Of a DNA stretch of 38,365 bases, positions 281 through 33,106 are shown piece by piece. A model generated the notes under the pieces. The model made no database searches. It was given only the letters and a program-made list of their open reading frames with translations, and was not told where the DNA came from. Position 1 is the first letter of the stretch; every line of letters starts with the position of its first letter. Source of the DNA: Cytophagaceae bacterium (GTDB lineage: Bacteria > Bacteroidota > Bacteroidia > Cytophagales > Spirosomataceae); NCBI GenBank assembly GCA_027486845.1, contig JAIXOL010000055.1, positions 1 through 38,365 on the forward strand. The letters are read 5' to 3'. The translations under genes and the position numbers were made by a program.

Positions 281-2212
281 TTATACCTTCTTACTTCCTG
301 GTTCTTTTAATAATGCAATAAGGTCTGGAAGATGTTTTTCATAGACTTGTCGAGGTGTTGCATCTTTTTTTACACATATCGAAGCAGCCTTCCCTACTAC
401 TTCGCCCATCATTCCGCAAGTTCTCATTACTCTTACTGGCCCGAGTCCTGTTTTTGTTACGCTAATGTTTCTACCAGCCATGAACAAATTACTTACGTTT
501 CGACTATAAAGTGTACGATAAGGTGCCCAATAGAGACCTCCATATTGATACTCTGCTCCTCTGGTGTAGTCAGAGATGAATTCCATTCCTTCTAAACCCT
601 CTTTAAATTCTTTTTTAGGTGTGTGTAAATCCACGTGCCAAGAACATGGAAAAGCACCATCTTCAAATTTGGTTTGTTTTTTAAAATCTTCTGCATCTAA
701 AACAACGTCGCCCATCAATCTACGAGATTCTCGTTTACCGGCAATGTATGCCGACCAGCCTAGACGATGGTTCGGATACATTTTATCAACGTTTTTAATG
801 ACATCCCATGCTCCATACATCGCTCTAAAGTTGTGGTCTCTAATTTGCTCAATTTCCGTAACTTGATTTTGATTGAAACCACTTTCCCAGTACCACATAT
901 TGGCAAAAGATTGCAGGCCTTCTGCACCAAAAGTTTTTACGCCCTTACGGCCAGGGAATGGTTTATCGGCTAAATCTAATGCCCACGGACATCTTGGAAA
1001 TGGTTGAACGAACTCACCTATCTCACACTTCATCGCCAAGGCACTTTTATCTTTACATTCACATTTTAATACCTCTTCTTTATTTGTGGCATCAAGTACA
1101 TTGAATAGATTTGAACTACCCATCAGATTTTCAACTTTATATTCATGGTCAGCCCCTGCCTTAAAACCTACAACTGCATCGCCAGTACAATCCGCAAAAA
1201 ACTTAGCTGTCAATCGTTTTTGATGGCCAGAACGAATATTTTGAATCACAATTGCACTAATTTCATTGTCATTCATGACTACTTCTATTGCTCTATTTTC
1301 GATAAATAGCTTAATATTAGGTTCACGCTTAACTACTTCTAATTTCAATTTATCGTCATAATAATCGGCACTGACACCATTGAAAACTTGTCCAGAACCT
1401 TTTACAATATTGGGTAAAATTTCACTCACAATATCGCCAACGTGAGGATAAGGCTGCTTGTTTGTATGTCCTTCGGGCCATACCCGCACTTCTGAGCTAC
1501 CGTTTCCGCCTAATACAGGTCTATCTTGCACCAAGGCAACTTTAACACCATTCCTTGCCGCAGAAATAGCAGCACAGGTTCCTGCCAAACCACCGCCAAT
1601 GACTATCAAATCAAATGCTCCACCGTCGACAGGTTTTTCGGGTAGTCCTAAAAGGTTACGTCTAAATTTGGTTAGAGCGGCAATATCATTGATTGGTTGA
1701 AAATTGACATCTTTGCAAAATAAAATAGCTTCGCATCTACCTTCAAAGCCTGTTAAATCGTGTAATGCTATTTTTGTCTTTTTTCCTACTTTTACTGTTC
1801 CACCATCATGCCAATGCCAATCCGCACCTTTTGTGCCAAAGGTTTCTTTTAAGGGTTTATTATTGACTAATAATTGAAACTTCCCTGGAGTTCCTGGGGC
1901 ATTCCAATGAGCCACCCAATCTTTGGTTCGTACCCATACACGGTAAGTACCTTCCGAAGGAAAGACTATTTCGGTAGTCGCATCTTCCACAGGAATTCCC
2001 AGTCCGTGAGCCAATAAATATGGGCTACCCATTTTTTCCATTGATTGCTGGTCTATATTCCAGCCGCCAAAATTGGTAAATTGTTCTGCTTCAAGAAAAA
2101 CAAATTCTTTATTAGTTTTTTTGTTTGAAAATGCGTTAGTTTCTGTTAAACCTCCAGCCAAAAGCATCAAACTGGTATTACCCAATGCACCGATAAAATT
2201 TCTTCTTTTCAT
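281..2212 (-). CDS. Secreted FAD-dependent oxidoreductase (FAD_oxidored family)
   Basis: The protein has 643 residues. A twin-arginine-like start (KRRNF at residues 3-7) followed by a hydrophobic stretch suggests export, possibly by Tat with bound cofactor. Residues about 36-170 form a beta-rich domain that looks like a carbohydrate-binding or accessory sandwich. Residues 200-240 carry a classic dinucleotide-binding Rossmann start (DLIVIGGGLAGTCAA) followed by RPVLGGNGSSE, the typical opening of FAD_oxidored proteins of polysaccharide-utilisation loci. The C-terminus has the second FAD-contact segment (NLFMAGRNIS). Substrate unknown; some relatives are annotated as xanthan lyase-like, which is not reliable. 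It is the last gene of cluster 1 and is separated from the preceding gene by a hairpin terminator, so it may have its own promoter in 2213-2332. A decayed relative of its C-terminus lies at 17835-18179. Confidence 0.85.
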   Translation of the reverse strand: MKRRNFIGALGNTSLMLLAGGLTETNAFSNKKTNKEFVFLEAEQFTNFGGWNIDQQSMEKMGSPYLLAHGLGIPVEDATTEIVFPSEGTYRVWVRTKDWVAHWNAPGTPGKFQLLVNNKPLKETFGTKGADWHWHDGGTVKVGKKTKIALHDLTGFEGRCEAILFCKDVNFQPINDIAALTKFRRNLLGLPEKPVDGGAFDLIVIGGGLAGTCAAISAARNGVKVALVQDRPVLGGNGSSEVRVWPEGHTNKQPYPHVGDIVSEILPNIVKGSGQVFNGVSADYYDDKLKLEVVKREPNIKLFIENRAIEVVMNDNEISAIVIQNIRSGHQKRLTAKFFADCTGDAVVGFKAGADHEYKVENLMGSSNLFNVLDATNKEEVLKCECKDKSALAMKCEIGEFVQPFPRCPWALDLADKPFPGRKGVKTFGAEGLQSFANMWYWESGFNQNQVTEIEQIRDHNFRAMYGAWDVIKNVDKMYPNHRLGWSAYIAGKRESRRLMGDVVLDAEDFKKQTKFEDGAFPCSWHVDLHTPKKEFKEGLEGMEFISDYTRGAEYQYGGLYWAPYRTLYSRNVSNLFMAGRNISVTKTGLGPVRVMRTCGMMGEVVGKAASICVKKDATPRQVYEKHLPDLIALLKEPGSKKV

Positions 2213-2375: not shown

Positions 2376-4862
2376 TTATTTGTATGTCAGCCACGTTGTA
2401 GCCTTACAATCTTTATTGGTAGAAAACCTTATCCAGCGTGCCTGAAAGCCTGATGGAAAATTGAAATCTATTGTTTCATTAGGTTTAACGATTACTTCTT
2501 TATATTTCATCCAAGGACCATGGCCTATAGGTTCTATATGAATTGTAAATGTTATTGCTTGTTTTGAGTCATGCGATATTTTAAGATTCTTTTTGTCATA
2601 AAAACCAATCAAATAAGGGTCTGAAGGAGTTCCAGCTTTTACCTGACTGTCCTTCCATGGGCCACCTTCTCCAACAGCTTTTCCCAATTTCCAAAGGTCA
2701 TCAATAGTTCCTGCCCATATTTTTGCTTTGCCATCATCAGAAGTAATGATGTGTTCATTTTTAGAAAATTGATTATCAAGCCCTGTCATGACTAATAGGC
2801 CACGATAAGAGGCATAATCATGAATACTAAGTGAATGTGAAGCCACAGGTCTGATTTTAGCAAATCCATCGGCATTTTCGGCTGGTAATTCATAAAATGT
2901 ACCATGTGCATTAAGCAAGTCTCGCTCTGTGGCTACTTCACGACAAATTCTTAAAGCTGCTTGTTGAGTTTTAGCAGTAAATGCCTGATTTCCTTTTGGA
3001 AGCCTCCATCTTCTGCCGTTGTCATCAACAATTAGCACCGAGGCGGCATCAATCGTAATCACTTCCCGTGGGATTGCAAATTTTTCACGAATGAACTGAG
3101 TCATTTTTGGGTCTTCTTTTTTTGTCAAATGCATAGCACTGTCCAATTCGTAGTAGCCATTTTCTGTAAAATTTTCATTACTAAATTGACCAGCCAAAAC
3201 GCCTAACTTTCTACGATTATTGCCCAAGCCATAAAGAAGTCCACCTGAATATGCGGAGACATTTACAGTGGCCAAACCATCGAATTGTTTGTCTTGAGTT
3301 ACCTGAAAATGAGCAACATCACTATAATTAAAATTAACGGTTGCTTTAGTGGCTCGATTGCTTTTTACACGAATCCACTCTCCCTTATCACTTGATGCGA
3401 AGGTAAGTCCAACGGATTGACCTGCACCCACTTCTACTGACCTTAAGGTTTTCCAATTTCCTTTGCCATCAACGTCGGTTTCAAAGCTGAATTTAACCTT
3501 TTGACCTCCATCATTTACTACCCAAGCCATCCGTTGTTGCCAACCTGCAAATAGAAATGGTTCGGAAAAAGCATTTGCCTCAATTTTTTCAGAAAGCCAA
3601 ACAGCCCCTTGAGCTGTATTAGGCCCTAAATTGTCAGGTGTAGTAAGTGAAGTAAACCAAAGGTTTGAATTGGATTGTCCTGGCCCTTCGATGTTTCCTT
3701 TGGTATTGCGTTTGTTTAAAAACTCTTTTTGTGCGGAATCATCACAACCAAAAACTAAACCATTATTCCATCGGGTGAAGTCGCCAATCACTTTAAGATA
3801 AGCCGAACGTGGGCGAATACCAGAAGTATTTTTTGATGTAAATGTTTGTGGAAAACGCCAAAAAAGCCCGTGCATGGTCATGAGATAATCAGGTTTTTCA
3901 GTAGTACCGATGTCACGAATTCGAGGCCATTCTGTATTCCAACCGTGAGCACCATCGTAGCTGTGACTGGCTTTTGGCAAGCGAAAGAACGACCATTTTC
4001 CGCCGTCACGGACACCCAACAAAACTGATTTGTGGTCCCAGCCTGTTGCCCAGATTGGGTCGGTTGCAGGATTGTTATTACCATAAATTCCTCCTGGACC
4101 TGTTACTTCCACAAATTGATTACGACGTATTACTTTCCAGTCTTTTCCATTCCATTCGGCCAAAACACCTGATTGTATATCAAACTGTTTCAGTGCCAAA
4201 GAACCAGATTCTCCATTATTGGAATACACCATTACTCCCTGACCTGAATACACACCTTTGCCGTGTGCACCAGGAAGGAGTGTTCCATTAAAGTTATTCT
4301 GAGTATCGTCATGCTTTTTTTCTTTAACATTACCATCTTGATAAAGCATTTGGGTTTCGAGATTTTTAACATCTAATTTGTAAAAACCTTCTTCCATGGT
4401 GGCAATTAAAAGCTTGTTTTTAGGGTCAGACAAATCACGAGCTAAACCTGTATAACGGCCAGGTGCTTGGGTATATGGAATGGTACGAACGATACGGTTT
4501 CCATCAATGGCATAAGGCCCTATAAATAACTGATTGCTCTCTTTATGAATCATTCTATTGGCAGGTGTTCCCCCAATACTTTCGGGTCTTATTATTCTGC
4601 TCAAATCTGGTGAAATTTCATATAATTTATCAGAAGAACCGAATGGTAAATGTGGGCCATAGGTTACGACCCATAATCGGTCTGCCCATGGTACTACCGC
4701 ACCAGTACCACATTCACCTTCATTGTTATAATTAGCCAAATGAGGATAAATACCGCTAAATTGGGGGTAGGTTGACTTAGGTTGAGCATGAGCAGCACTA
4801 CTAATTAAATACAAACATGCAATGATGCCTGTTGATAGAGTTTTGGTGATTGATGGAAGCAT
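2376..4862 (-). CDS. Secreted protein of an unrecognised repeat family, paralogue A (two modules)
   Basis: The protein has 828 residues with a signal peptide (residues 1-26, ending AHA). I do not recognise the family. Residues 36-275 form a conserved N-terminal region (SGIYPHLANYNNEGECGTGA, then VVPWADRLWVVTYGPH) whose regular W/G spacing suggests a beta-propeller. Residues about 276-515 and 604-826 are two diverged copies of one module: a W..(F/R)RLPK strand, an HG.F(W/Y)..P motif, then W..DDLW.LG or its counterpart, a SDP or SEP turn, and a WIR....KAT....Y ending. A linker of about 85 residues separates them. It is the third of three tandem paralogues, 47 bp after paralogue B. No catalytic residues can be named. 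Roles such as glycan binding, lyase or hydrolase are possible but not shown. Confidence 0.85.
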   Translation of the reverse strand: MLPSITKTLSTGIIACLYLISSAAHAQPKSTYPQFSGIYPHLANYNNEGECGTGAVVPWADRLWVVTYGPHLPFGSSDKLYEISPDLSRIIRPESIGGTPANRMIHKESNQLFIGPYAIDGNRIVRTIPYTQAPGRYTGLARDLSDPKNKLLIATMEEGFYKLDVKNLETQMLYQDGNVKEKKHDDTQNNFNGTLLPGAHGKGVYSGQGVMVYSNNGESGSLALKQFDIQSGVLAEWNGKDWKVIRRNQFVEVTGPGGIYGNNNPATDPIWATGWDHKSVLLGVRDGGKWSFFRLPKASHSYDGAHGWNTEWPRIRDIGTTEKPDYLMTMHGLFWRFPQTFTSKNTSGIRPRSAYLKVIGDFTRWNNGLVFGCDDSAQKEFLNKRNTKGNIEGPGQSNSNLWFTSLTTPDNLGPNTAQGAVWLSEKIEANAFSEPFLFAGWQQRMAWVVNDGGQKVKFSFETDVDGKGNWKTLRSVEVGAGQSVGLTFASSDKGEWIRVKSNRATKATVNFNYSDVAHFQVTQDKQFDGLATVNVSAYSGGLLYGLGNNRRKLGVLAGQFSNENFTENGYYELDSAMHLTKKEDPKMTQFIREKFAIPREVITIDAASVLIVDDNGRRWRLPKGNQAFTAKTQQAALRICREVATERDLLNAHGTFYELPAENADGFAKIRPVASHSLSIHDYASYRGLLVMTGLDNQFSKNEHIITSDDGKAKIWAGTIDDLWKLGKAVGEGGPWKDSQVKAGTPSDPYLIGFYDKKNLKISHDSKQAITFTIHIEPIGHGPWMKYKEVIVKPNETIDFNFPSGFQARWIRFSTNKDCKATTWLTYK

Positions 4863-4909
4863 ATATATGTTAGTTAGACCTTAAAAATTTGACAAATTTG
4901 TAAATTAAT

Positions 4910-6361
4910 TTATTTAAAAGTAAAATAAGCTGTTCCAACACAATCTTTATCGGCTACCAACCGTATCCATTTAGGGTTAAACGATTCTTTTAAATCAATG
5001 CTTTTACTTTCGTTTGCTTTTACCGTTATAGTTTGAAATGTTCTGTAAACCCCATCACCAACAACATCTGCTTCAAGTGTAAATTTCACATCGGCGGTGC
5101 TTTTATGCCATAAATTCAACGATTTGTTATTAAAATTAAAGGTAAAAAACGGGTCGGAAGGTTTTCCTTTCTTAATTTCTGTATTCAGCCAAACGCCGCC
5201 TTCTCCCTGCAATTTACCAAAGTTCCACAAATCGTCAGTTTTTCCAAACCATAAGCCTGCTTGGGCTTGTCCAGCCAAAGGGTTATTGTCAATACCGCTG
5301 CTGAAACGCATCGGAGTCGCTTGGTTGCCACCCAATACGAGCATACCCCGCCAACTGCAAAAGTCTGGGATAATACGTAGATGGGAAGAAATAGGTTTGA
5401 TTGCCCAAAGTTGATTACCGTAAGTATGGTATCCTATTTCATAAAACAGGCCATGACAATCCATTAAGGCTCTTTCTGTTTCGACTTCCCTGATACGCAT
5501 CCATTCTGTACAGCTGGTTTCATCAAAAGTGCGACTTCCTTTTGGCAGACGATAGCGTTTCCATTCTTTGGTAGAAGGAAAATACACATTCATTAAAACA
5601 GAGGCTTTATCCCAGCCCGTAGCAATCATAGGTTGGCCAAACGAACCGGCACTCCATACTTCCGTAAATGCCGTTTTTTCTAGAATTTTCCAAGTAGCTC
5701 CGTCCCATTCTGCCAAACGTCCAGCCGACCAAGCACCGCTGTAATCTTTTTCGTTATAGCTATTATTTGTCACTACAACTCGGCCGTGCTTTGTAAATCC
5801 TGATTTAAAATGAGGTTTAGAACCAACCGGTTCGTCCAACTCTTTCATTAAATTGAAAAGTTGCTTTGACTCTAAGGTCGTTACATCAGCTTCAAAAAAC
5901 TCGCCTTCCATGGACAAAAAATAGACTTTTTTGTTGGGTTCTGTTAAATGAGCCATTGTTGCGGCCAAACGGTAGTTTTTTACGCCTTCAATCACTCTAA
6001 CATTTCCAAGAGTATCAATGACGTAAGGCCCTATAATCAACTGATGCGTAGAGGCATGAATAAACCTATTTGCATAAGTTCCTACTATGCTCTCAGGTCT
6101 TTTCTTCAACTCCATTTTTTCGTTTATTTCATAGAGCCCTGTTCCAGAACCTGATGGGGACATGTGTGCAACGTATGTAATCACCCAAAGGCGATTTGCC
6201 CAAGGCATTAGACCACCTGTCCCCGCTTCGGTACGTGGACTATGATTAGCGACCATGGCTAAATTTGGAAAGATGCCACTGACGGATGGTGTGCTTTGTC
6301 CGTGTAACTGAAATAGGAACGAACTTACAAATAAAAGCAGGACACTTAAACTGATTTTCAT
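4910..6361 (-). CDS. Secreted protein of the same unrecognised family, paralogue B (one module)
   Basis: The protein has 483 residues with a signal peptide at 1-21 (LFQLHGQ at its end). It shares the N-terminal propeller-like region of its neighbours (SGIFPNLAMVANHSPRTEAG, then GLMPWANRLWVITYVAH) and then has only one copy of the C-terminal module: RYRLPKG, E..R.R...TER, CHGLFYE, SWRGMLVLGG, KTDDLWNFGKLQGEGGVW, GKPSDPF and a final KWIRLVADKDC. It lacks the first module and linker of paralogues A and C, so it is either the ancestral single-module form or a deletion derivative. It lies 16 bp after paralogue C and 47 bp before A, consistent with one operon. Function unknown. Confidence 0.85.
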   Translation of the reverse strand: MKISLSVLLLFVSSFLFQLHGQSTPSVSGIFPNLAMVANHSPRTEAGTGGLMPWANRLWVITYVAHMSPSGSGTGLYEINEKMELKKRPESIVGTYANRFIHASTHQLIIGPYVIDTLGNVRVIEGVKNYRLAATMAHLTEPNKKVYFLSMEGEFFEADVTTLESKQLFNLMKELDEPVGSKPHFKSGFTKHGRVVVTNNSYNEKDYSGAWSAGRLAEWDGATWKILEKTAFTEVWSAGSFGQPMIATGWDKASVLMNVYFPSTKEWKRYRLPKGSRTFDETSCTEWMRIREVETERALMDCHGLFYEIGYHTYGNQLWAIKPISSHLRIIPDFCSWRGMLVLGGNQATPMRFSSGIDNNPLAGQAQAGLWFGKTDDLWNFGKLQGEGGVWLNTEIKKGKPSDPFFTFNFNNKSLNLWHKSTADVKFTLEADVVGDGVYRTFQTITVKANESKSIDLKESFNPKWIRLVADKDCVGTAYFTFK

Positions 6362-6377
6362 CTCACAAAGTATTTAA

Positions 6378-8867
6378 TTATTGATAAGTAAAAATAGCGG
6401 TGGCTTTACAGTCTGAATCGGGTACTAAGCGAACCCAATGTGCCGAAAATCCGTCTGGGAATTGATAGGTAATTGATTTTTCCGCTGGCACTTCTATCGT
6501 TTTGTAGTGATAAAAATCACCGTTTGCTAAGAAGTCAAGTTCGATTCTAAATTTTACAGTCGTTTTTGAATCGTGGTTAAATTCCACTGTTTTTTTGTCG
6601 TAGCCAGTCATTAAATAAGGGTCGCTGTATGTATTGGCTAAAACCTCACTATTTTTCCATGGCCCACCTTTGCCAGTTGGTTTGCCGAGTTTCCATAGAT
6701 CATCAATCTCGCCAAACCATAAGCCATGCGTTTGATTAGTGACTTTAAAAATATGACCATCAGCTTGAGCGTCTGCTGAAATGCCACTCAATACCAGTAG
6801 TCCTCGCCACGTACAGAAATCTTTGATATTCAGCGAATGAGAAGAAACTGGTTTCATTCTGACATAATCGGGCGTACTACTTTGCACATCATTTTTCCAG
6901 CTTGATACCCTTGGCACTTCATAAAAAGTACCGTGAATATTGGCGAGAAAACGCTCCTGAACACATTCCCTTACAGTACGAATATTATTGATTTTATCGA
7001 ATCTTTCGTCACCTTTTGGCAAACGATAAATGATGCCTGCATTTTTTACTATAACAGAAGCCTCATCAACCATTATTTCAGGAACAATCCCATGCGTATT
7101 TTTTAACTCTAAAATACTGGTTTTGTCTTCATTTTTAGGAATAAACGCCATTGTTGAATCTACTTCAAAATAAGAATCGTTGCCTTGTTCATCTGTTGCC
7201 AGGTATTGTAAATTTCGTGTAGGAAAACCTTGACGAATAACAGCCGTTGGTAGATTTTTTTGATTATCAATTTTTGCAAGTCCTTTGAATATTGCATACT
7301 CTTTATTGTCAAAAACTCTGTTGGAATAAGCATGAATATAAGCCGTAGCTTTTATAGATTTATCACTCACCAAACGTATCCATTCTGACTTAAATTGGCT
7401 TGGAATATTTCTTGTTACATATTCTCCTGCATTTAATTTGATAGATTCTACAGTCTTCCATTGGTTATTGCCCTTCTCATCTACTTCAATTTTTATATTA
7501 GCTGTTGGAGTCCCCGTTTGATAAAGGTGTAATGTACGATGCTGAAAACTGTTGATACTGAGGGCGTCACTTGGCTTATTGGCAGAGACATAATCGTCTC
7601 GCCATACGCCGCCCCACCCGATAAGTGGGCCTTTTCGATTTAGTCCATCTAATGAGGTAAATATTAAGTTAGAGTTGGGCTGTCCTGGAACGTACTTTTG
7701 AATGCCATGCCAACTTGTTTCCTGACTTGATAAAACAAGCTGATTATCCCACATGGTATAATCTGTAACAGTGCGAAGCATGGTATTTAATGGTTTCAGC
7801 CCCGCCGAATTTTTATTTGAGAATGATGCTGGAAAATCAAAAAAGCCTCCATTCATAAACATTAAATATTTCGAGGGTACTATTTCTCTGATTCGTGGCC
7901 ATTCGGTATTTGAGCCATTACGCCCCTCCATAGCATAGGTAGGTTTCAGGAAACGGTAATTTTGCCATTTACCTGCATCTCTTACGGTTAAGAGAAGCGA
8001 ACTTTTATCCCAACCCGTAGCCCAAATAGGCTCATCTTTCGTTTTAGCACCTGTTAACCCACCTGGACCTGTAACTTCTACATATTGATGGCGAGCAATT
8101 AATTTCCAAGTTTTTCCGTCCCATTCAGTAAGTGAACCCCATACCTGAGGCCCTTTTGGCTTTGGACTTAGAAAAAGGCTATCTGCCTTAATTTCAATTT
8201 TTGCTACCCCAAATGGGTCTGAATAATTTACACTCCAATAGGGCGTAGGGGCTGATTCTTCGCCATTATTTGACATAATAAACACCCCTTGACTTGTATA
8301 AGCTCCTTTCGCGTGCCAAGCCACCGCTGGTTTTTTAAATAGCATTTTTGATTTGAGCGTATGAACATCAACTTCAAAGATTGCCCCTTCTTGGGTCAAG
8401 TACAAAACTTTATTTTCAGGGTCAGTTAAATCTCGGGTTACTGCTGTTAACCTTCCTGAAAGCTCTTTACGGGGTACTACTCTTACTTTACCTGTTCTAT
8501 CAATAAAATAACATCCAATAATTAGTTGCTCTGACTCTTTATGAATCATCCGACAAGCATGAGTACCTCCTACGCTTTCATGGCGAATTTCGTGCTGATA
8601 TTTTTCGTCAATGGAATGTAATTTATCTTTTCCTTCAAATAAGTCGTGTGATGTATAAGATAAATACCAAAGTTTACCTGCCCAAGGCACTAATGCCCCA
8701 ATACCACATTCAGCTTGTGGTTTAGGGCTATTAGGAGAAGAATTAAAAGCAGCAAATGCAGGATATACTCCCGAAATTTCAAATGGTTTTTGTTGAGAAA
8801 AAGCTGTATTTGCTAGGTTTAAAAGCAGCAATGCGATATATTTTTTCAATCTATTTTTTGATTTCAT
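6378..8867 (-). CDS. Secreted protein of the same unrecognised family, paralogue C (two modules)
   Basis: I chose the ATG at 8867 because it gives a proper signal peptide (MKSKNRLKKYIALLLLNLAN, then TAFSQ); the longer frame to 8933 only adds 22 residues that run against the preceding frame. The resulting 829 residues match the length of paralogue A (828). The N-terminal region carries SGVYPAFAAF, ECGIGALVPWAGKLW and GGTHACRMIHKESEQL. The first module ends near WIRLVSDKSIKATAYIH, and the second contains IYRLPKGDERF, HGTFYEVP, TWRGLLVLSG, LWFGEIDDLWKLGKPTGKGG and WVRLVPDSDCKATAIFTYQ. The start overlaps the last 17 bases of the upstream remnant frame. It is the first of the three tandem paralogues. 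Function unknown. Confidence 0.85.
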   Translation of the reverse strand: MKSKNRLKKYIALLLLNLANTAFSQQKPFEISGVYPAFAAFNSSPNSPKPQAECGIGALVPWAGKLWYLSYTSHDLFEGKDKLHSIDEKYQHEIRHESVGGTHACRMIHKESEQLIIGCYFIDRTGKVRVVPRKELSGRLTAVTRDLTDPENKVLYLTQEGAIFEVDVHTLKSKMLFKKPAVAWHAKGAYTSQGVFIMSNNGEESAPTPYWSVNYSDPFGVAKIEIKADSLFLSPKPKGPQVWGSLTEWDGKTWKLIARHQYVEVTGPGGLTGAKTKDEPIWATGWDKSSLLLTVRDAGKWQNYRFLKPTYAMEGRNGSNTEWPRIREIVPSKYLMFMNGGFFDFPASFSNKNSAGLKPLNTMLRTVTDYTMWDNQLVLSSQETSWHGIQKYVPGQPNSNLIFTSLDGLNRKGPLIGWGGVWRDDYVSANKPSDALSINSFQHRTLHLYQTGTPTANIKIEVDEKGNNQWKTVESIKLNAGEYVTRNIPSQFKSEWIRLVSDKSIKATAYIHAYSNRVFDNKEYAIFKGLAKIDNQKNLPTAVIRQGFPTRNLQYLATDEQGNDSYFEVDSTMAFIPKNEDKTSILELKNTHGIVPEIMVDEASVIVKNAGIIYRLPKGDERFDKINNIRTVRECVQERFLANIHGTFYEVPRVSSWKNDVQSSTPDYVRMKPVSSHSLNIKDFCTWRGLLVLSGISADAQADGHIFKVTNQTHGLWFGEIDDLWKLGKPTGKGGPWKNSEVLANTYSDPYLMTGYDKKTVEFNHDSKTTVKFRIELDFLANGDFYHYKTIEVPAEKSITYQFPDGFSAHWVRLVPDSDCKATAIFTYQ

Positions 8868-9168
8868 ATCTGTAAAAGCCAAAATCGGCAGGGTTTTCAA
8901 TATTAAATTTCGCAAATCTATCTGCATTAACATGTAATATTGTTTCTGTTTGATTACGTAAATTCAGAACCTTTAATTTTTGGTTTTTCAAGAAACTTAG
9001 CTTGATTTCCTTTTCAAACTTCATTTGAGTATAATTCTCTGAAAGGCAATAATTGACCACTTTGGTTATTGCCATTTACGAACTGAAAACCTGTAAATGA
9101 AGCATTGTTGGGTCTATCGCCATATGGTTTTCATAAATATATTTATTTTTAAATGAATGATTTTTGAC
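8851..9168 (-). pseudogene. C-terminal remnant of a secreted protein, frameshifted
   Basis: An open frame of 74 codons (8851-9075, from ATG 9075) ends in RFAKFNIENPADFGFYRYE, which looks like the last beta-strands of a glycosidase or similar secreted enzyme. A stop codon (TAA) sits immediately before that ATG. A different frame just upstream reads convincingly as protein (DRPNNASFTGFQFVNGNNQS, then GQLLPFRELYSNE) and then stops, and the first frame is open again before it. I read this as the 3' end of a gene broken by at least one frameshift, with the bulk of the gene deleted up to the SusD terminator. The frame ends inside the start region of the next gene, so translation of the surviving tail could still couple to it. 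A genuine small protein is the alternative. Confidence 0.5.
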
Positions 9169-9210: not shown

Positions 9211-10917
9211 TTAATACCCGGGATTCTGTTTCATATTGGTATTGATTTGAATTTCAGCCGCAGGTATGGGCCATAAATACTGACGGTCGTCCCAAGTCGT
9301 AAGTACCAAGTTCTTAATCAGTCCTGTCGCTGCCATTGCTGTAAAGTCAGGTGTACCGTCTTGGTCAATTGTAGGTGTACCGGCGAAAAACCAAAGGTTT
9401 TTATCTACAACTTTTGACTTCAAATCAGCAGGGTCGAGTATTCCATAAATTGGACGATTGAGTACTTTACCTGCAATTTTCCAGCGAATGATGTCCATAT
9501 ATCGAAGCCCCTCAGATGCCAATTCCACTCTACGCTCCATGCGTATTTCACGGCGAAGTTCGGCTTGGACTTTCGTTTTAATTGCAGGATAGGTCGTGGC
9601 TGTAACAGCTACTTTATATGCCCTTGCTCTAACGGCATTGATAGCCGCTAGTACAGTATCGTCAATCTCATTGAGTTCTGTTTTGGCTTCAGCATACATT
9701 AATAAAATATCAGCATAGCGAATGATAAAATGTTCTGTTTCGATTAATCTACCATTGAGCAACCAAGAATCATCTACTCTTTTTTTCCAAACTAAACCAT
9801 TAAAAGAAGCAAATTGAGCATTAGCTCGGTTGTCATTATTTGTTACTTTGGTATTACTGCTCAAGCGAGTTACTTGCAAAGCAGTAGGATTTGGGTCGTA
9901 AATAAAACCAAGGTGAGGCGTACCAAATTCAACAATTGTTGCGGAGCATCTTGGGTCTCTATTTGCAAATGGATTTCTTGGGTCATATAAAGAGGACTTA
10001 TCAATCGTTTTACCATCGGTGCATAAATAAGAACAAAATAAATCCCAAGTGGGATTTTGGGCTCCGAATCCACCTGCATTTCTGGTGATAATATCAGAAA
10101 TAGGGCCTACTGTTTGTTTTAATTCTAATGAACGAGGAATGGAGAAAATTACCTCCTTGGAATTTTTTGTACTTTGAAGAAATAAATTCGAATAATCAGG
10201 ATGTAAAGTAAAAGCATTCAAATCTATACAGGCTTTAGCCGCTTCGGCAGCTACTTTAAAATCACCCTCATAGAGTGCAAATCGAGCTTTTAGTCCCATA
10301 GCTGCACCTTTAGTAGCTCTTTTTACGGCAGTAGTAGCATAAGACGTTGGCAAGTTTTTTATGGCAAAATCAAAGTCTTCGTAAATTTTGGTAGTAACTA
10401 TTTTTTTATTTGTTCTTCCTATTGAGTATGCTTCTTCGATAGAAACTACTTGGTCAGTATATACAACATCTCCAAAATGATTCACTAATCGGGCATATTG
10501 AGCCGCACGATGAAAGCGAGCTTCTGCAATGTAAATATCTAGCTTTGATTGTGCTACCTTTGCCTTGGTTTCATTGCTATTTAAAGCAACAATTGCTCTA
10601 TTTGCTCGTGCAATAGCTTTATAGGAATTTCTCCAAAGAGTTGTTGAAAAATCCCACTGGCTTGTTATTGTACCTGATTTGACAGGAGTAAGAGACTGAC
10701 GATAATAACCATCATCTGAAAGATAATTATTACTCAAATCTTCGTCCCATTGCCACCAATCTATGCGGTATAAGTCATTGAGTGCCAACTGAATTTCTGT
10801 TTCATTTGAGTACCACTTTTCAGCTGAAGGTTCTGCCAAAGGATACAAGTCTAAGGAGTTTTGGCAAGAAGCAAATAAAAGTATGCTCAAAACTGCTGCA
10901 AATATTTTTGATTTCAT
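9211..10917 (-). CDS. SusD/RagB-family glycan-binding lipoprotein (cluster 1)
   Basis: The protein has 568 residues. The N-terminus is a lipoprotein signal with the lipidated cysteine at residue 18 (LLFASC). The N-terminal SusD-like segment (SLDLYPLAEPSAEKWY, ALNDLY) and TPR-like helices (YKAIARANRAI, IAEARFHRAAQYARL) are followed by the C-terminal SusD domain with FIIRYADILLMYAEAKTELN, RREIRMERRVELASEGLRY and the closing YLWPIPAAEIQINTNMKQNP. SusD caps the SusC channel at the outer-membrane surface and captures oligosaccharides. It follows SusC1 by 62 bp and ends at a hairpin terminator. The ligand cannot be inferred. Confidence 0.95.
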   Translation of the reverse strand: MKSKIFAAVLSILLFASCQNSLDLYPLAEPSAEKWYSNETEIQLALNDLYRIDWWQWDEDLSNNYLSDDGYYRQSLTPVKSGTITSQWDFSTTLWRNSYKAIARANRAIVALNSNETKAKVAQSKLDIYIAEARFHRAAQYARLVNHFGDVVYTDQVVSIEEAYSIGRTNKKIVTTKIYEDFDFAIKNLPTSYATTAVKRATKGAAMGLKARFALYEGDFKVAAEAAKACIDLNAFTLHPDYSNLFLQSTKNSKEVIFSIPRSLELKQTVGPISDIITRNAGGFGAQNPTWDLFCSYLCTDGKTIDKSSLYDPRNPFANRDPRCSATIVEFGTPHLGFIYDPNPTALQVTRLSSNTKVTNNDNRANAQFASFNGLVWKKRVDDSWLLNGRLIETEHFIIRYADILLMYAEAKTELNEIDDTVLAAINAVRARAYKVAVTATTYPAIKTKVQAELRREIRMERRVELASEGLRYMDIIRWKIAGKVLNRPIYGILDPADLKSKVVDKNLWFFAGTPTIDQDGTPDFTAMAATGLIKNLVLTTWDDRQYLWPIPAAEIQINTNMKQNPGY

Positions 10918-10979: not shown

Positions 10980-13900
10980 TTAAAAACTGATATTAAATCC
11001 ACCAATCACAGTGGTAACAATACCAAACCCCTCTGGATCCCAGCCTTTCGGGTATTTGTTAATCGTAAAAACATCAGAAGCATTTACATAAAACCTTATG
11101 TTATTAGACATGATTTTATTTGAAATACTTTTCGGAATTGTATAACCTAATGCAATGTTTTTTAGACGAAAATACCCTCCATTGAATAACCAAAAGTCGG
11201 ATAGCGTACGGTTGAAGCCTTTATTTGTTTCAGTATATCTTGGATATTTAGCAGCAAGGTTTTGGTCTGGTGTATTATTTACACTCCAAGTGTTACCATC
11301 TAAATAAACAGGGAATACGCCCCAGTTTTCGGCATTATAATCTGTATAATCAAGGTTTGAAACTTGCTGATAACCTATCCCTTGAAAGGTAATACCCAAA
11401 TCAAAATTGCCATATTCTAAGCGTACATTACCACCATACATCCATTGGGGTAATGAACCTCCTAATAGCACACGGTCGTACTCTGGAGATATTTTACCAT
11501 CGGGAACACCATTTGGGCCACTAATATCAGTGTATTTTAGATCGCCAACTTTGACAGTATTGCTTAATTTAGGCGAATTGTTTAGGTCTTCCTGTGTTTG
11601 ATAAATACCTCCTGACTTATATCCATACCACTCGTCAAATTGGCTACCTTTTTTCTTTATTTTACTGCCAAGGAATTCAGTACCGCCCAAATCGCCCATT
11701 ATTGATTTAAACTGTGATAAATTGGCAGAAACTGAATATTTAAGTTTACCAATATTATCTGTCCAACCCAAATCTAAATCTATACCCTTAGTTTCCATAA
11801 TTCCGGTATTTTGATTAGGGTTTTCAAAGCCTACAAAAATTGGAATCTGTAATGCTAGTAGCATATCTTTGGTTTGTTTATAATAAACATCGCCAGTAAA
11901 TCGTAGTTTATTTTTAAAGAAATAAGCATCAAATCCTAAATCAGTAGAAGCTGTTTTTTCCCAAGAAATATCTTTAATAGCGTACTGAATCTGAGCGGCT
12001 GTTTGCTGAGCAACAGCTACATTGTTTTGATAAAACAAGGCATTTCCAAAACTTATAATGCCGAAAGATGGGTAGTTTCCTATTCTCTCGTTACCCAATG
12101 TTCCCCACGAAGCACGCAATTTCAAGAATGAAATTAGATTCTGTTTTTGCATGAAACCCTCTTCAGATACTACCCAACCTGCCGAAATCGAAGGAAATAC
12201 GCCCCATCGATAATCTTTATTGAACCTCGATGAGCCATCACGTCGTACATTGGCTTGTAGTAGATATTTGTTATTATAGCTATAGGTGATACGACCAAAT
12301 TGTGAACGATAGGCTGTTTCGAAGGCAGTACCAAAATTATCTCTCAAAGCGGCAGGACCTTGGTTTAAGAAAGGATACGTATCAAAAAGATATTGGTCTC
12401 TTGATGCACCCATAGACTCACCTTTGTAGTAATAATTTTCGTATCCAATTAATGCTGTAAAATCACTTTTTCCGATTGTTTTTATGTAATTCCCCAATAA
12501 TTGAGTCGTAAGACTATAGTTTGTTGTCCGATTTTCATCTAAACGTGTCGTAAGCCCACCACTTATCAAAGTTGCAGCCAACTGATTTGGGTTATCGGCA
12601 GAATAAGCATCTACTTGTTTATTGAATCGTTTTTGATTATTAAAATCAAAAATAGGAGCAAGAATAGCCGAAAGTTTTAAGCCATCAATGGGTTTTAAAT
12701 CCAATGCAATTCGGCCTCCTACTTGATTAAAATTATTGTTGTTTGTTCCACCGTATTTAATTTTGGCATAAACATTTTCGCCTGCTTTTCCGTCGGCAAT
12801 TCTTCCATCTGCCCATAGTGCTGGATAAATAGGTGATGAAATTCTTATCCTACCTAATGGATCATTAGCAGTTGGGTCGGTGGTATTTGTTCTTTTGAAA
12901 TTAAAGTCCACAGTTCCACCAATAAATTTATTGATAGTAAAGTCGTTATTTGAGCGTAAAAAGATACGACCATAATCTTTGTTTTCATAGAAACCACCCA
13001 GTTTTTCATAACGAATGGAAGCATTCGATTTTACAAACTTTGAACCACCTATGATGCTAATACTGTGTGCTTCACGTCGTGCCATCTTATTGAGGGTCAA
13101 AGCCATCCAATCGGTATCGGGGAATTTGTTGGGGTCGGTCTGATGTTTTTGGTCATAGTTATTCAACAAATCTTGGCTAAAAGTAGGGAATTTGTTTGCT
13201 CCATTGCCTGCATCATTCCAACGAAGTTCATTGACTAATTCCATGTATCTTGATGCCCTCATATAGTCAGGTAATTGAGTGGGCTTGTCAAAGCCATTTT
13301 CGTAGTTATATTGTATAGAAGCTTGGTCTGTTTTAGCCCTTTTGGTAGTTATTAAGATAACACCAGAAGCAGCACGAGAGCCATATATAGATGCCGATGC
13401 AGCATCTTTTAAGACCGACAAGTTTTCTATATCATTTGGGTTCACTTGGTTAACATCAGCCACAGGAACACCATCTACAATCACCAAAGGATTTGAATCT
13501 CCGATAGTAGTTACACCTCGAATTCTGATAGTAGCACTACCCATCGAACCATTTGCTCCACTACGAGTTACCGTAACGCCCGACATCGCCCCTTGGAGTG
13601 CCTGTGCTACTTGGGTTTCTTTACGTTCTTTAAACATTTCACTACCAATAGACGACACTGCCCCAGTAAGGTCTTTCTTTTTCTGCACACCATAGCCTAC
13701 TACTACTACTTCATCAAGTGCTTTACTATCAATTTTGAGTGAAACATTAATTTTTGTTTGATTTCCAACAGTTATTTCTTGTGCTTGAAATCCAACAAAA
13801 CTAAAAACCAAAATGGATTTACTGTCAGTTACCGCTATCGAATATTCGCCATCGACGTTTGTAGTGCCTCCACGACTTGTGCCTTTAAGGGTTACGCTTA

Positions 13901-14399
13901 CACCTGGAAGTTTTTCGCCTTTTTCGTCGCTTACGGTACCTTTAATGGTGATATCGTTATTTACATTGTTTTCAATGGTAGGCAAAGTCATACTTATTTG
14001 ATTAGAGCCATTTTCTTTTAGGTCTAGCCCCAAAGACTTTGAACGAATCAAAATAATTTGTCTTTCTCCCACGGTTTCAAATGAAATATTCCTTGGCGTA
14101 AGCACTTTTTTAAGTACATCTTCCACCTTTTCGTTTTTTATTTCCAAGGTTAATGGCTCATCATTCGCAATCAAATCTTTTTTGTATGAAAACAACACGT
14201 TTGTCTGCTTTTCTATTGATTTCAACAAAGTTTTTATACTCCCTTTCTGGAGAGAGATACTCACCTTTTTTTGTAGCATATCCTGTGCTTTTGCAGGTAT
14301 TGCAAAAGCATTTGCCGCAAAAACGACTGCTATAATCAATTGTATGAGGTTGATTTTCATAAACAATAGAAAATTTTGTTTAGTACTATTTTTTGTCAT
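10980..14399 (-). CDS. SusC/RagA-family TonB-dependent transporter with STN domain (cluster 1)
   Basis: The protein has 1139 residues. The signal peptide may begin at the internal Met14 (MKINLIQLIIAVVFA). Residues about 42-120 form an STN domain (SISLQKGSIKTLLKSIEKQT), which in this architecture contacts FecR in the periplasm. A carboxypeptidase-regulatory-like beta domain follows at about 150-225 (GTVSDEKGEKLPGVSVTLKG), then the DEVVVVGYG segment, the plug (NPLVIVDGVPV, LKDAASASIYGSRAASGVIL) and the 22-strand barrel ending in GGFNISF. It imports glycan fragments with SusD1. The STN domain and the sigma/FecR pair upstream mark it as both transporter and signal receiver. A 186-base leader lies between FecR1 and the start. 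Confidence 0.95.
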   Translation of the reverse strand: MTKNSTKQNFLLFMKINLIQLIIAVVFAANAFAIPAKAQDMLQKKVSISLQKGSIKTLLKSIEKQTNVLFSYKKDLIANDEPLTLEIKNEKVEDVLKKVLTPRNISFETVGERQIILIRSKSLGLDLKENGSNQISMTLPTIENNVNNDITIKGTVSDEKGEKLPGVSVTLKGTSRGGTTNVDGEYSIAVTDSKSILVFSFVGFQAQEITVGNQTKINVSLKIDSKALDEVVVVGYGVQKKKDLTGAVSSIGSEMFKERKETQVAQALQGAMSGVTVTRSGANGSMGSATIRIRGVTTIGDSNPLVIVDGVPVADVNQVNPNDIENLSVLKDAASASIYGSRAASGVILITTKRAKTDQASIQYNYENGFDKPTQLPDYMRASRYMELVNELRWNDAGNGANKFPTFSQDLLNNYDQKHQTDPNKFPDTDWMALTLNKMARREAHSISIIGGSKFVKSNASIRYEKLGGFYENKDYGRIFLRSNNDFTINKFIGGTVDFNFKRTNTTDPTANDPLGRIRISSPIYPALWADGRIADGKAGENVYAKIKYGGTNNNNFNQVGGRIALDLKPIDGLKLSAILAPIFDFNNQKRFNKQVDAYSADNPNQLAATLISGGLTTRLDENRTTNYSLTTQLLGNYIKTIGKSDFTALIGYENYYYKGESMGASRDQYLFDTYPFLNQGPAALRDNFGTAFETAYRSQFGRITYSYNNKYLLQANVRRDGSSRFNKDYRWGVFPSISAGWVVSEEGFMQKQNLISFLKLRASWGTLGNERIGNYPSFGIISFGNALFYQNNVAVAQQTAAQIQYAIKDISWEKTASTDLGFDAYFFKNKLRFTGDVYYKQTKDMLLALQIPIFVGFENPNQNTGIMETKGIDLDLGWTDNIGKLKYSVSANLSQFKSIMGDLGGTEFLGSKIKKKGSQFDEWYGYKSGGIYQTQEDLNNSPKLSNTVKVGDLKYTDISGPNGVPDGKISPEYDRVLLGGSLPQWMYGGNVRLEYGNFDLGITFQGIGYQQVSNLDYTDYNAENWGVFPVYLDGNTWSVNNTPDQNLAAKYPRYTETNKGFNRTLSDFWLFNGGYFRLKNIALGYTIPKSISNKIMSNNIRFYVNASDVFTINKYPKGWDPEGFGIVTTVIGGFNISF

Positions 14400-17801: not shown

Positions 17802-17834
17802 TTTTTATTTAAATTTAATTCATCAAATTATTGT

Positions 17835-18179
17835 TTACACTTCATTCCATTTTATTTCCTTCGGCAACCGCATTTTCAAAGCAGCTTTAGCAGCTATTTT
17901 ACCCGCTGCCTCACCCATTGGTACGGCATTGCCTGTTACTCGATAGCTGGCATGAGCATAGAAATCTCCGCTGATGCAACGGCCTGCCATCATTAAATTA
18001 TGCACATCTTTCGCTATCAGCGAGCGAAGAGGAATTTGATAAGGTTTCATTTTGACACCATTATTACCATATCCACCTCCTTCGCCTTTAACTAATGAAT
18101 GGACATCAACAACAAAGCTAAGTGCATTGCAGTCCAATCTTTTAATCCAAAATTCCCTGAAGAATTTGGATTTTGACAT
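17835..18179 (-). pseudogene. Truncated FAD-dependent oxidoreductase, C-terminal remnant
   Basis: The 114-codon frame matches only the C-terminus of FAD_oxidored-type proteins: IPLRSLIAKDVHNLMMAGRC, then AHASYRVTGNAVPMGEAAGK and AALKMRLP, the second FAD-contact region. The Rossmann nucleotide-binding start is missing. The reading frame stays open upstream of the ATG to about 18240 (GRQRNATLLGSQLMSKSK) before a TAG stop, which shows that the ATG is not a true start but lies inside older coding sequence. A complete relative (281-2212) is in cluster 1. It probably lost its 5' part by deletion between here and the toroid gene at 18600. Any product would be non-functional. Confidence 0.8.
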
Positions 18180-18599: not shown

Positions 18600-19889
18600 C
18601 TATTTATGAGACTTGAAGTAATAGGCATATTCCGCATAAAAAAACTCCGAAAGGAATAATTTCGAGTAGTCGTAATGGGCTACCACTTCATCTATAAGTT
18701 TAAAATCTTCGGGGTTCTCAGCCAAAGCCAGAATCGAGGCAGCTGCCAGCGGAGTAGTCATATAATCCCTTTCGTAGTTTTTCCTTAATCCCGCTTTAGC
18801 GTCATTTCGTAATTTTGAGACCGCAATGGCTTCAACAATTGTGAATTGAGGAAACCACTCCGTATAACATGCTCTCCAATCTGTATTTCCGAAGATTGTC
18901 GAATCCTTGTTGTCAAACTTTGTGTAACCCTTAGCGACTTCTAGCACAAAGTCTCTGTTTTTCTTTATTCCTTCTTTGTAATTTGCTTTGATGTGAGCTT
19001 CCTTCTCTAAACTTGCAAGTTCTACCAATGATGCCTGCTTCATAACATAAATCCAGAGATATGAATTGTTTTTCCGACCTTTCCAAAAAGCAAGATCATA
19101 AGGTATTCCTTCTGCACAGACTTCAGACCGAGTTTTTATACCGCCTTTAGGTACTTCAGAAGCTGCTCTTTTGTACCAGTTGAGCCATTCTACATTACCA
19201 GTAAGTTCATACATTCCCCTTAGAAGATATAAATAGCAAGGGACTTCTAGAAAGCGGTTGTCTTTTAGGTCATCACGGGTCAAGCCAGTAAACAAGCCAT
19301 CACTCGGAAACTCCCAGTCCTTAAGCCTGAGTGCATTAATAACCTCAACCATTTTGGCTTTGATGATTTCTCTTTCTTTAACTGAAGGAATATCAGTTTT
19401 GAGGTATTGGAAGAGACCATAAAACCAAGGAACTGTTTGATCATTCGAGCCGTTGGGGTAATGAGTAAGACCGTCAGTACTCACTCCCCGAGAAATAAAT
19501 CCTGGCACATCAGAAACCATAGAAAGTTTAAGAAGCCCCTGAGCGAGTATTCTGGCCTTGTCTTTGTCAATATCTGATCTTGTTTGCTTAAATTTTTCAC
19601 AAGTTGCAGCTAAATACAATCCCGTAAAAAAAGCACCGTCTTCAATTGGTGTCCACCACCCAAAAGCATTGGGCCGGGACAAACGGCAATCCATTGCTGT
19701 AGGAATTTCACCAACAAAATCATTGACGATGCCATATTTATCGATAAACTTATTCCAAAGTTCATGATTTGCCTGATCTGCAGCCGATTTGGCTTCGAAC
19801 TGAGCATTTATAGAAGGTACCGAACAAAATATCCCTAGAAAGATGAACAAAACGCACCTAACTTTACTTTTTATATGATTTATTTTCAT
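18600..19889 (-). CDS. Secreted alpha/alpha-toroid-like protein of unknown activity
   Basis: I chose the ATG at 19889 over the one at 19916 because it gives a clean signal peptide (MKINHIKSKVRCVLFIFLGI, ending SINAQ). The mature part, about 400 residues, is helical with a repeating pattern of short aromatic loops: AFGWWTPIEDGAFFTGLYLA, VPGFISRGVSTDGLTHYPNG, TVPWFYGLFQYLK, WEFPSDGLFTGLTRDDLKDN and FLEVPCYLYLLRGMYELTGN. This is the appearance of an (alpha/alpha)6 toroid, the fold of many glycoside hydrolases and polysaccharide lyases. Conserved Asp, Glu, Trp and His residues in the loops could form an active site, but I cannot assign a family. It begins 38 bp after SusD2 and is probably co-transcribed with it. 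Confidence 0.75.
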   Translation of the reverse strand: MKINHIKSKVRCVLFIFLGIFCSVPSINAQFEAKSAADQANHELWNKFIDKYGIVNDFVGEIPTAMDCRLSRPNAFGWWTPIEDGAFFTGLYLAATCEKFKQTRSDIDKDKARILAQGLLKLSMVSDVPGFISRGVSTDGLTHYPNGSNDQTVPWFYGLFQYLKTDIPSVKEREIIKAKMVEVINALRLKDWEFPSDGLFTGLTRDDLKDNRFLEVPCYLYLLRGMYELTGNVEWLNWYKRAASEVPKGGIKTRSEVCAEGIPYDLAFWKGRKNNSYLWIYVMKQASLVELASLEKEAHIKANYKEGIKKNRDFVLEVAKGYTKFDNKDSTIFGNTDWRACYTEWFPQFTIVEAIAVSKLRNDAKAGLRKNYERDYMTTPLAAASILALAENPEDFKLIDEVVAHYDYSKLFLSEFFYAEYAYYFKSHK

Positions 19890-19927
19890 TGTATTTTGAA
19901 TATTAAAGAGTATCAAAAAGGCTGGTG

Positions 19928-32194: not shown

Positions 32195-32233
32195 GAATAA
32201 CAATGGTTGGAATATTAATCAATAGTAATTTTT

Positions 32234-33106
32234 TTAGGATACTAAATCTCTGACAAATCGATTGTTTTTTAAATAGCTTTCTAGCATCGTTTTTCCTGGA
32301 GGAACGGCTCCTTCTATTTGAATGGCTCCAGAATATCCAATCTCATCGATACAATTTTTTACCCGTTCGAAGTCAACCTTTCCTTGCCCCAAAAGAGCGT
32401 CATTTTCTTTAAAATGAAATTCACAGATTTGATTTTTTTTACCAAGCCATTTAATTTCTTCATAGATGTTGTAACCCATTTTTTCTGAATTAGCCACATC
32501 ATAATAGACCTTTAAATTGGACGAGCCCACTGCGTCGATGATGTGCATGTGTTCCTCTGCACTTAGCCAAGATTCTATACCCAAAGTAACACCCGCTTTT
32601 TCTGCGATTGGCATAATATCTTTAAATTTTTGAATGACAACATCTTGTCCCTTTGAGTCATTTTTCAAATCCCCTTGATTAAAAAAGGCAATTAATACGG
32701 CTTTAATATTGAATTCTTTGGCAACTTGAATGCTATCAGCTACCCATTGGTCCGTCTGTTGGTCTGATTTAAATGGGTAATTGTTGAGTTCGCCAATACC
32801 CAATCCGGTAAAACCGACTTTAAAGATTTTAGCTAAAGATTTATAGGCTTCTTGTACATCCTTTCTTCGTAAATGCATATTGTTTGCCTTTAAGCCAAGG
32901 CTTAATTGGACACCATCTAAGCCTATTTCTTTGGCCATTTCCATAGCCCCTAAATTAGAGGTATTGGAAATCGACCAATCGCAGGCACCGATGAAAAAAC
33001 GTTTGCTCTTTTCATTGGTTTGAGACTCGGAAAACCATGTGTTTCTATGTGGCATGGTAGCAAAAATCCCCAATGCACTTTTTTGCAAAAATTCCTTTCT
33101 TTTCAT
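32234..33106 (-). CDS. Sugar phosphate isomerase/epimerase-like TIM-barrel protein, exported
   Basis: The protein has 290 residues. An N-terminal MKRKEFLQKSALGIFATMP suggests an export signal of the type common in Bacteroidota AP-endonuclease-2-like (xylose isomerase-like) proteins. The barrel carries FFIGACDWSISN, GLDGVQLSLGLKANNMHLRR, AGVTLGIESWLSAEEHMHII, LKVYYDVANSEKMGYNIYEE, CEFHFKEND and YSGAIQIEGAVPPG, with His, Asp and Glu at the usual metal-binding strand ends (E in GIESW, D in YYDVAN, H in EFHFKE, E in QIEGA). It probably isomerises or epimerises a sugar, in partnership with the downstream dehydrogenase. The upstream region holds a perfect 17-bp inverted repeat 16 bp before the start. 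Confidence 0.88.
   Translation of the reverse strand: MKRKEFLQKSALGIFATMPHRNTWFSESQTNEKSKRFFIGACDWSISNTSNLGAMEMAKEIGLDGVQLSLGLKANNMHLRRKDVQEAYKSLAKIFKVGFTGLGIGELNNYPFKSDQQTDQWVADSIQVAKEFNIKAVLIAFFNQGDLKNDSKGQDVVIQKFKDIMPIAEKAGVTLGIESWLSAEEHMHIIDAVGSSNLKVYYDVANSEKMGYNIYEEIKWLGKKNQICEFHFKENDALLGQGKVDFERVKNCIDEIGYSGAIQIEGAVPPGKTMLESYLKNNRFVRDLVS

Follow-up and report, generated by a model that had tools for sequence, protein, structure and literature searches.

An apparently secreted protein family with an internally duplicated module beside SusC and SusD genes in Bacteroidota

The slot right after susD is often occupied by surface glycan-binding proteins (SGBPs), namely SusE/SusF and the other SGBPs of PULs, which diverge fast. 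The β-propeller polysaccharide lyases and hydrolases are a second group of described glycan-active proteins, represented by PL22, PL25, GH145 and similar families. ApbE-dependent extracytosolic flavin systems form a third point of comparison (PMC8238504, PMC11334425). The main text of PMC8238504 does not use the words Bacteroid- or polysaccharide.

The window, meaning the whole 38,365-nt stretch of Cytophagaceae bacterium DNA analysed here (host genome G000, 5.36 Mb), carries on its minus strand the gene order SusC1, SusD1, C, B, A and FAD oxidoreductase (FADox; Table 1). All three tandem paralogues are intact reading frames, placed as in the preliminary description, and the tight spacings given there between C and B (16 bp) and between B and A (47 bp) returned the same values on recomputation; the outer gaps are 343 bp (SusD1–C) and 163 bp (A–FADox). 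The frame of C opens at 8933 (851 aa); we set its start at 8867, which gives the better signal peptide by eye. SusD1 matches all 61 hits of the SusD cluster, the best being that of locus L040 (97%). GH29 and GH10 genes are also found in the window (Pfam).

Table 1 Positions in the window of the three paralogues, their domains and the adjoining genes
Feature	Position	Strand	Remarks
FADox	281..2212	-	PF12831, E = 3.4e-68; extra N-terminal part; Tat-like start by eye
Paralogue A, 828 aa	2376..4862	-	Signal peptide, N-domain, module 1, linker, module 2
A module copy 2, residues 601–828	2379..3062	-	hhalign, module cut
A module copy 1, residues 272–514	3321..4049	-	Last ~85 residues weakly β-sandwich-like in some relatives
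A N-domain, residues 31–271	4050..4772	-	Carries invariant positions of the A/B/C alignment
Paralogue B, 483 aa	4910..6361	-	N-domain and one module; smallest family unit seen
B module, residues 250–483	4913..5614	-	Module cut, tree
Paralogue C, 829 aa	6378..8867	-	Layout as in A
C module copy 2, residues 598–829	6381..7076	-	Module cut, tree
C module copy 1, residues 280–511	7335..8030	-	Module cut, tree
SusD1, directly upstream of C	9211..10917	-	PF07980 above cut-off at 9214–10116
SusC1, SusC-type TonB-dependent transporter	10980..14399	-	Assigned by likeness to the SusC cluster, not by Pfam; 99.6% to L040

A and C are 37% identical over 843 columns, and B matches the N-terminal half of A at 32% (E = 6e-75) and, likewise, the first part of C. 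Residues 241–483 of B also match A 595–828 (35%, E = 2e-43), and residues 270–483 match C 614–829 (38%, E = 1e-43; all by blastp). Within A, residues 272–514 and 601–828 align with an hhalign probability of 99.9% (E = 9.5e-33), and the final ~85 residues of either copy, aligned alone, reach 99.7% (E = 7e-27, profile comparison). Module-to-module scores of 186 in A and 207 in C lie far above the best of 1,000 shuffles (57 and 60, respectively), placing the duplication in both proteins beyond chance. The preliminary description, working by eye, had proposed a module present twice in A and C and once in B; hhalign, blastp and shuffling agree on this layout, with the two copies of A homologous to each other and to the module of B. 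The motifs it listed are true of B and of the second copies, but two of them, DDLW..GK and SDP, do not occur in copy 1 of either A or C.

The N-domain (A 31–271) is common to A, B and C and occurs once in each; no second copy was found within A, and the domain has no match to A's modules. We rejected duplication of a whole half of A: the linker (512–606) against the N-domain gave noise (probability 2%, local alignment), and a global alignment of the two halves reached 99.95% but was carried by the module. Duplication is demonstrated for the module only. As judged from these alignments, what the family shares is one N-terminal domain followed by a single module, which is all of B, a feature that emerged in the present analysis.

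The preliminary description knew of no named family with this layout, and library searches bear it out: no Pfam or NCBIfam model lies over the core, there is no PDB sequence match, and no described enzyme family was found over the full length. Pfam-A returned only Tudor_4 for A (E = 0.3) and NCBIfam only BSAP5i_fam, again for A (E = 0.15, 12 bits against a cut-off of 150), with nothing for B or C in either library. PDB sequences, searched with A and B singly and with the family profiles A2 and A3 (C being a row in both), gave only E = 0.15 or worse. We found no description of the family in the literature on PULs, flavinylation and fucosidases, where coverage of subscription papers was thin, so this is not proof of its being unpublished. 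One relative, carried by a Spirosoma plasmid, bears the annotation hypothetical protein.

The 54 relatives of A in alignment A2 (C included) matched 22 Pfam families at E ≤ 1. Weak β-sandwich matches recur among the 54, to CBM_35_2 (24/54), PLipase_C_C (17/54) and F5_F8_type_C (15/54), with a best E of 8e-6. Ten members were scanned singly; seven have a match to one of these three families (L104 being counted by PLipase_C_C), each in the closing part of one of the two modules, and three have none, L061 lacking any match at all and the paralogue in L073 having others. The likeness is weak and partial, and one of the ten passes a curated cut-off there: L118, with a partial CBM_35_2 match at the end of module 2 (26.3 against 23 bits); cut-offs were checked on these ten members, and further partial passes among the 54 are possible. 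This further paralogue in locus L073, of 1200 aa, has a T9SS sorting tail (Por_Secre_tail, E = 1.7e-8, passing the cut-off) and a weak CBM_4_9 match. The family resembles PL22, PL25 and GH145 proteins in its apparent secretion, in having ~400 residues ahead of a sandwich-like part and in the invariant His, Arg and Lys of its core. Unlike them, it matches no propeller model of these types at E ≤ 1, either in A, B and C themselves or among the 22 Pfam families of the 54 aligned members. A propeller fold for the N-terminus of A, B and C is a guess.

Judging from signal patterns, the proteins look secreted, as first proposed, and may in part be lipid-anchored. Signal peptides can be recognized by eye at the start of A, B and C, that of A being type I-like. 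A simple pattern applied to the best 80 of the 156 loci described below finds a lipobox-like N-terminus in 31/80 and a type I-like signal in 37/80; at least two of the 31, L051 and L052, are doubtful, and a looser pattern gives 40 lipobox-like N-termini.

A match to A occurs in 100 of 200 genomes of the window's family (host and partial matches counted) and in 5 of 395 genomes of a phylum-wide sample, host included. The genome scan gave 156 coding places, the best 80 of which are 61–97% identical and all Bacteroidota by title, from Runella, Spirosoma, Larkinella, Chitinophaga, Flavobacterium, Parabacteroides, Phocaeicola, Alistipes and Bacteroides. These 80 hold two near-identical pairs (L049/L080 and L093/L094), and 35 of them are cut by a contig end within ~10 kb of A. 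The plasmid collection held one record with a family member. Other SusCD loci, where the preliminary description had advised looking, do contain the family: in 37 of the best 80 of 156 loci, A is immediately preceded by main-cluster SusC and SusD. The initial sequence finding is right. The family is new, bearing no name in the libraries searched, and the loci that hold it are of a known kind. The gut genera Parabacteroides, Bacteroides, Phocaeicola and Alistipes carry it nameless in those libraries, though in the best-studied type of sugar-uptake locus.

Among the loci examined, the C–B–A triple occurs only in the window and in its close relative L040, whose A is 97% identical. Across the best 80 of 156 loci, B lies beside A in four (L040, L049, L051 and L080) and C is present only in L040. 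Outside those 80, C–A is found in L140, a lone C-like gene follows SusCD in L135 and L191, and L136–L139 have a B-like gene with no adjoining A, near SusCD genes and/or sulfatases. The triple is a local expansion, and A is the widespread member. A separate arrangement in Parabacteroides (L105, 9983–22467) has three A-type genes, one shorter and one open-ended, together with repeated susD, which suggests either that the genes duplicated locally not long ago or that the assembly repeats them.

A shows clearly higher conservation than the SusC and SusD of its own loci, another result new here. Over the 37 loci, drawn from the best 80 of 156, that have all three genes, median identity is 66.3% for A, 48.2% for SusD and 47.8% for SusC (666 pairs, which are not independent); A exceeds SusD in 581/666 pairs and SusC in 632/666. 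In the 13 loci with FADox (78 pairs), A stands at 65.3% and FADox, an enzyme, at 48.6%, so high conservation is no mark of enzymes as such. These figures bear on the possibility that A, B and C are non-catalytic SGBPs that pass glycan to SusCD, a reading that we hold to be the main rival of an enzyme, possible but not favoured. The gene next to susD, the secretion, the lipobox-like signals in part of the family and the sandwich-like or CBM-like C-terminal parts all suit an SGBP; the conservation of A above SusC and SusD, set against the fast divergence of SGBPs, and charged invariant positions that resemble an active site speak against one, and no SGBP model was matched in the Pfam scans.

The invariant core was mapped on 23 aligned A/B/C relatives. 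Although A, B and C of the window are only 32–37% alike, at least 22 of the 23 agree in 70 columns, many of them charged; A proteins make up about half of the set, and conservation between groups is more telling. Residues of the N-domain identical in 23/23 are (A numbering throughout) E50, H71, R103, H106, R136, E157, H200, K202, N215 and N216. At the level of at least 22/23, the N-domain also includes Y68 and Q111, and module 1 contributes D276, K297, T310, E311, R314, R316, D361 and R498. Because the invariant columns sit there, and because copy 2 is without the T-E-W part, the N-domain plus module 1, which is the makeup of B, looks like the working unit as far as alignment can indicate.

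A module tree was built from 35 copies, cut at matching places from 14 two-module and 7 one-module family proteins. One-module (B-type) copies fall between first and second copies, with support of 100 on the branches to both sets; placements within the B group are weaker (52–73). Counting positions that at least 80% of the copies of a module type conserve, 18 are common to all three types, 20 are limited to B and copy 1, 25 to B and copy 2, and 4 to copies 1 and 2. B and copy 1 keep T-E-W before R-I-R; B and copy 2 keep E...E-R, Y-E, H676, D721, W724 and K728. Copy 2 has lost the T-E-W part and retains R620, R638, R641 and D682. Since the B module sits between the two copies and shares 20 and 25 positions with them, against 4 shared by the copies themselves, the simplest reading is that a B-like single-module ancestor duplicated once before the A/C split, its signature becoming divided between the copies. 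We infer this direction from the tree and the counts, both new here, and B may be merely a slower form. The one-module form, the two-module form and the split signature offer a ready comparison for division of labour after duplication.

In 11 of the 37 SusC–SusD–A runs no same-strand gene of at least 120 aa follows A at a distance of up to 300 bp, which makes A the sole candidate enzyme of those runs. Such solitary runs would also suit proteins that bind or sense a non-carbohydrate ligand or play a structural role. We regard this as highly improbable, given the SusD-type partner and the glycan-active genes in the window (GH29 and GH10) and around the second copy of A in the host (GH95 and GH29-like).

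The strong constraint on A, the charged invariant core, the sandwich-like ends, the one T9SS tail and the runs where A is the sole candidate lead us to favour, with a rough probability of 0.5, a surface glycan-cleaving enzyme family working beside the SusC/SusD importer. The proteins would be secreted, partly lipid-anchored and active at the cell surface next to the importer. Their functional unit would be the N-domain with one module, as in B, from which A and C would have arisen by one old internal module duplication, after which each copy would have kept a different half of the ancestral signature. They would cleave a glycan, as hydrolase or lyase, at an active site formed by the cluster of invariant Glu, His, Arg and Lys residues in the N-domain and module 1, with the C-terminal parts serving as putative binding modules. 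The cleavage product would be imported by SusCD and, in part of the loci, may be oxidised by FADox outside the cytosol. Several observations run counter to this reading: A, B and C match no named enzyme family in Pfam or NCBIfam, FADox is missing from the sequence compared in 52 of the best 80 of 156 loci, the neighbouring hydrolases differ among loci, and the place right after susD is a frequent one for SGBPs. If they are enzymes, they constitute a new carbohydrate-active family.

Exported FADox is the clearest partner of A, a further association new to this analysis. An FADox of the PF12831 type lies within ~10 kb of A in 28 of the best 80 of 156 loci against 0/40 controls (p = 2e-6), the controls being 40 SusD places hand-picked away from A and from contig ends in nine genomes of the window's family, host included, with taxonomy unmatched. 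Ten neighbour families were compared, with p uncorrected, and only FADox stands clear. A close form of the gene (at least 73% identity) is present in 21 of 200 family genomes, 16 of which have A (p = 0.02); the 73% limit was set in hindsight, from the gap that separates 73% from 49%, the latter being the highest identity of the distant form in the same 200-genome sample. The preliminary description saw in the neighbourhood a role in handling one glycan. In that form the proposal finds no support and stays conjecture: neighbour enzymes vary, and FADox alone is clearly enriched.

Other families near A in the best 80 of 156 loci are cl7 (9/80 against 0/40, p = 0.03, uncorrected), ApbE (5/80 against 0/40, p = 0.17, the near-identical pair L093/L094 included), GH2 (8/80 against 0/40, p = 0.05), GH29 (11/80 against 3/40, p = 0.38) and GH95 (4/80 against 0/40, p = 0.3). 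The product of cl7 is probably an exported protein; the one member scanned has no Pfam or NCBIfam family. A D/N...[ST]GA[TS] motif is present in 7/10 cl7 members against 2/897 other neighbours, and cl7 also has a C-x(3-5)-C pair. Five loci (L077, L087, L093, L094 and L100) have the run SusC–SusD–A–cl7–FADox–ApbE, followed in L087 by a second cl7–FADox pair; cl7 is found beyond these runs in L041, L068, L102 and L107. The ApbE of L093, one member, was confirmed by Pfam. The [ST]GA[TS] motif of cl7 resembles the ApbE flavinylation motif given in PMC11334425. ApbE-dependent extracytosolic flavin systems (PMC8238504, PMC11334425) are like these five loci in that a single run joins ApbE with a [ST]GA[TS] protein and an exported flavoprotein, and unlike them in that the A-locus run also includes SusC/SusD and family A.

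With the enrichment of FADox, the five runs, the uncorrected excess of cl7, its flavinylation-like motif and the confirmed ApbE in view, one can picture a single oxidative route in which FADox oxidises a sugar outside the cytosol, electrons pass through a flavinylated carrier, and A, B and C work on the glycan once it is oxidised, or offer it to FADox. We consider it rather improbable: no FADox is seen in the sequence compared for 52 A loci out of the best 80 of 156 (35 of the 80 being cut by a contig end), ApbE is near A in only the five loci above, and the single cl7 query found nothing in the host, an empty result that proves little. The host does have two ApbE genes elsewhere in its genome. 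A broader version joins the favoured glycan-cleaving reading to these partners, as an oxidative branch of SusCD uptake in which A, B and C would cleave the glycan together with exported FADox, a flavinylated carrier and ApbE, the sugar would be oxidised outside the cytosol, and the duplicated module would divide two halves of one ancestral site; taken whole, this is unlikely. Through its tie to an exported flavoprotein, the family would make an oxidative step in SusCD systems accessible to testing.

A nameless secreted family of ~550 aa, cl55, lies close downstream of A in two gut genomes (L092, 14553–16208; L106, 12416–14038); its member in L092 has no Pfam or NCBIfam match.

The host has a second copy of A on its contig 40, 91% identical to A, in a locus at 7770–54698 (L134, L189 and L190). 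The run before this copy includes L-fucose dehydrogenase (NF052481) and FucP (TIGR00885), both above cut-off, as well as an FAH-type hydrolase (NF053535) and a lactate-dehydrogenase-like gene, both below cut-off. A mutarotase-like gene was recognized by eye on the same contig. After A come a GH95 relative, a GH29-like gene, two SusC/SusD pairs and more GH95-, GH29- and GH2-like genes, and the locus also has two oxidoreductases like the FADox of the window. Because of these fucose-catabolism, fucosidase-type and oxidoreductase neighbours, together with GH29 and GH10 in the window, a fucosylated glycan would be a fair first guess at the substrate in this host. Fucose as a general substrate was set aside and kept as a lead only, with GH29 or GH95 genes neighbouring A in 12 of the best 80 of 156 loci against 3/40 controls (p = 0.38). 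Fucose genes were found near A in 0 of the same 80, and L-fucose dehydrogenase is present in 197/200 family genomes, so its mere presence is uninformative. A sulfated glycan was likewise rejected: sulfatases make up 11 of 75 neighbours scanned (chosen out of 203 in gene runs with A), and one occurs in 14/80 A loci (best 80 of 156) against 5/40 (p = 0.6).

Elsewhere in the window, a decayed 75-aa fragment with internal stops (17817–18041, minus strand) is like the C-terminal part of FADox (E = 7.5e-4); it may be what is left of a second oxidoreductase gene, or a chance match. It adjoins a nameless gene at 18600–19916 (438 aa), which, like that at 36460–37893 (477 aa), has no Pfam match at 1e-5; the product of the latter has by eye the look of a right-handed β-helix pectinase. 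At 29333–33106 (minus strand), a cytochrome-c-bearing DUF7133 protein adjoins an AP_endonuc_2 sugar-isomerase-like protein, a pair reminiscent of oxidative keto-sugar pathways.
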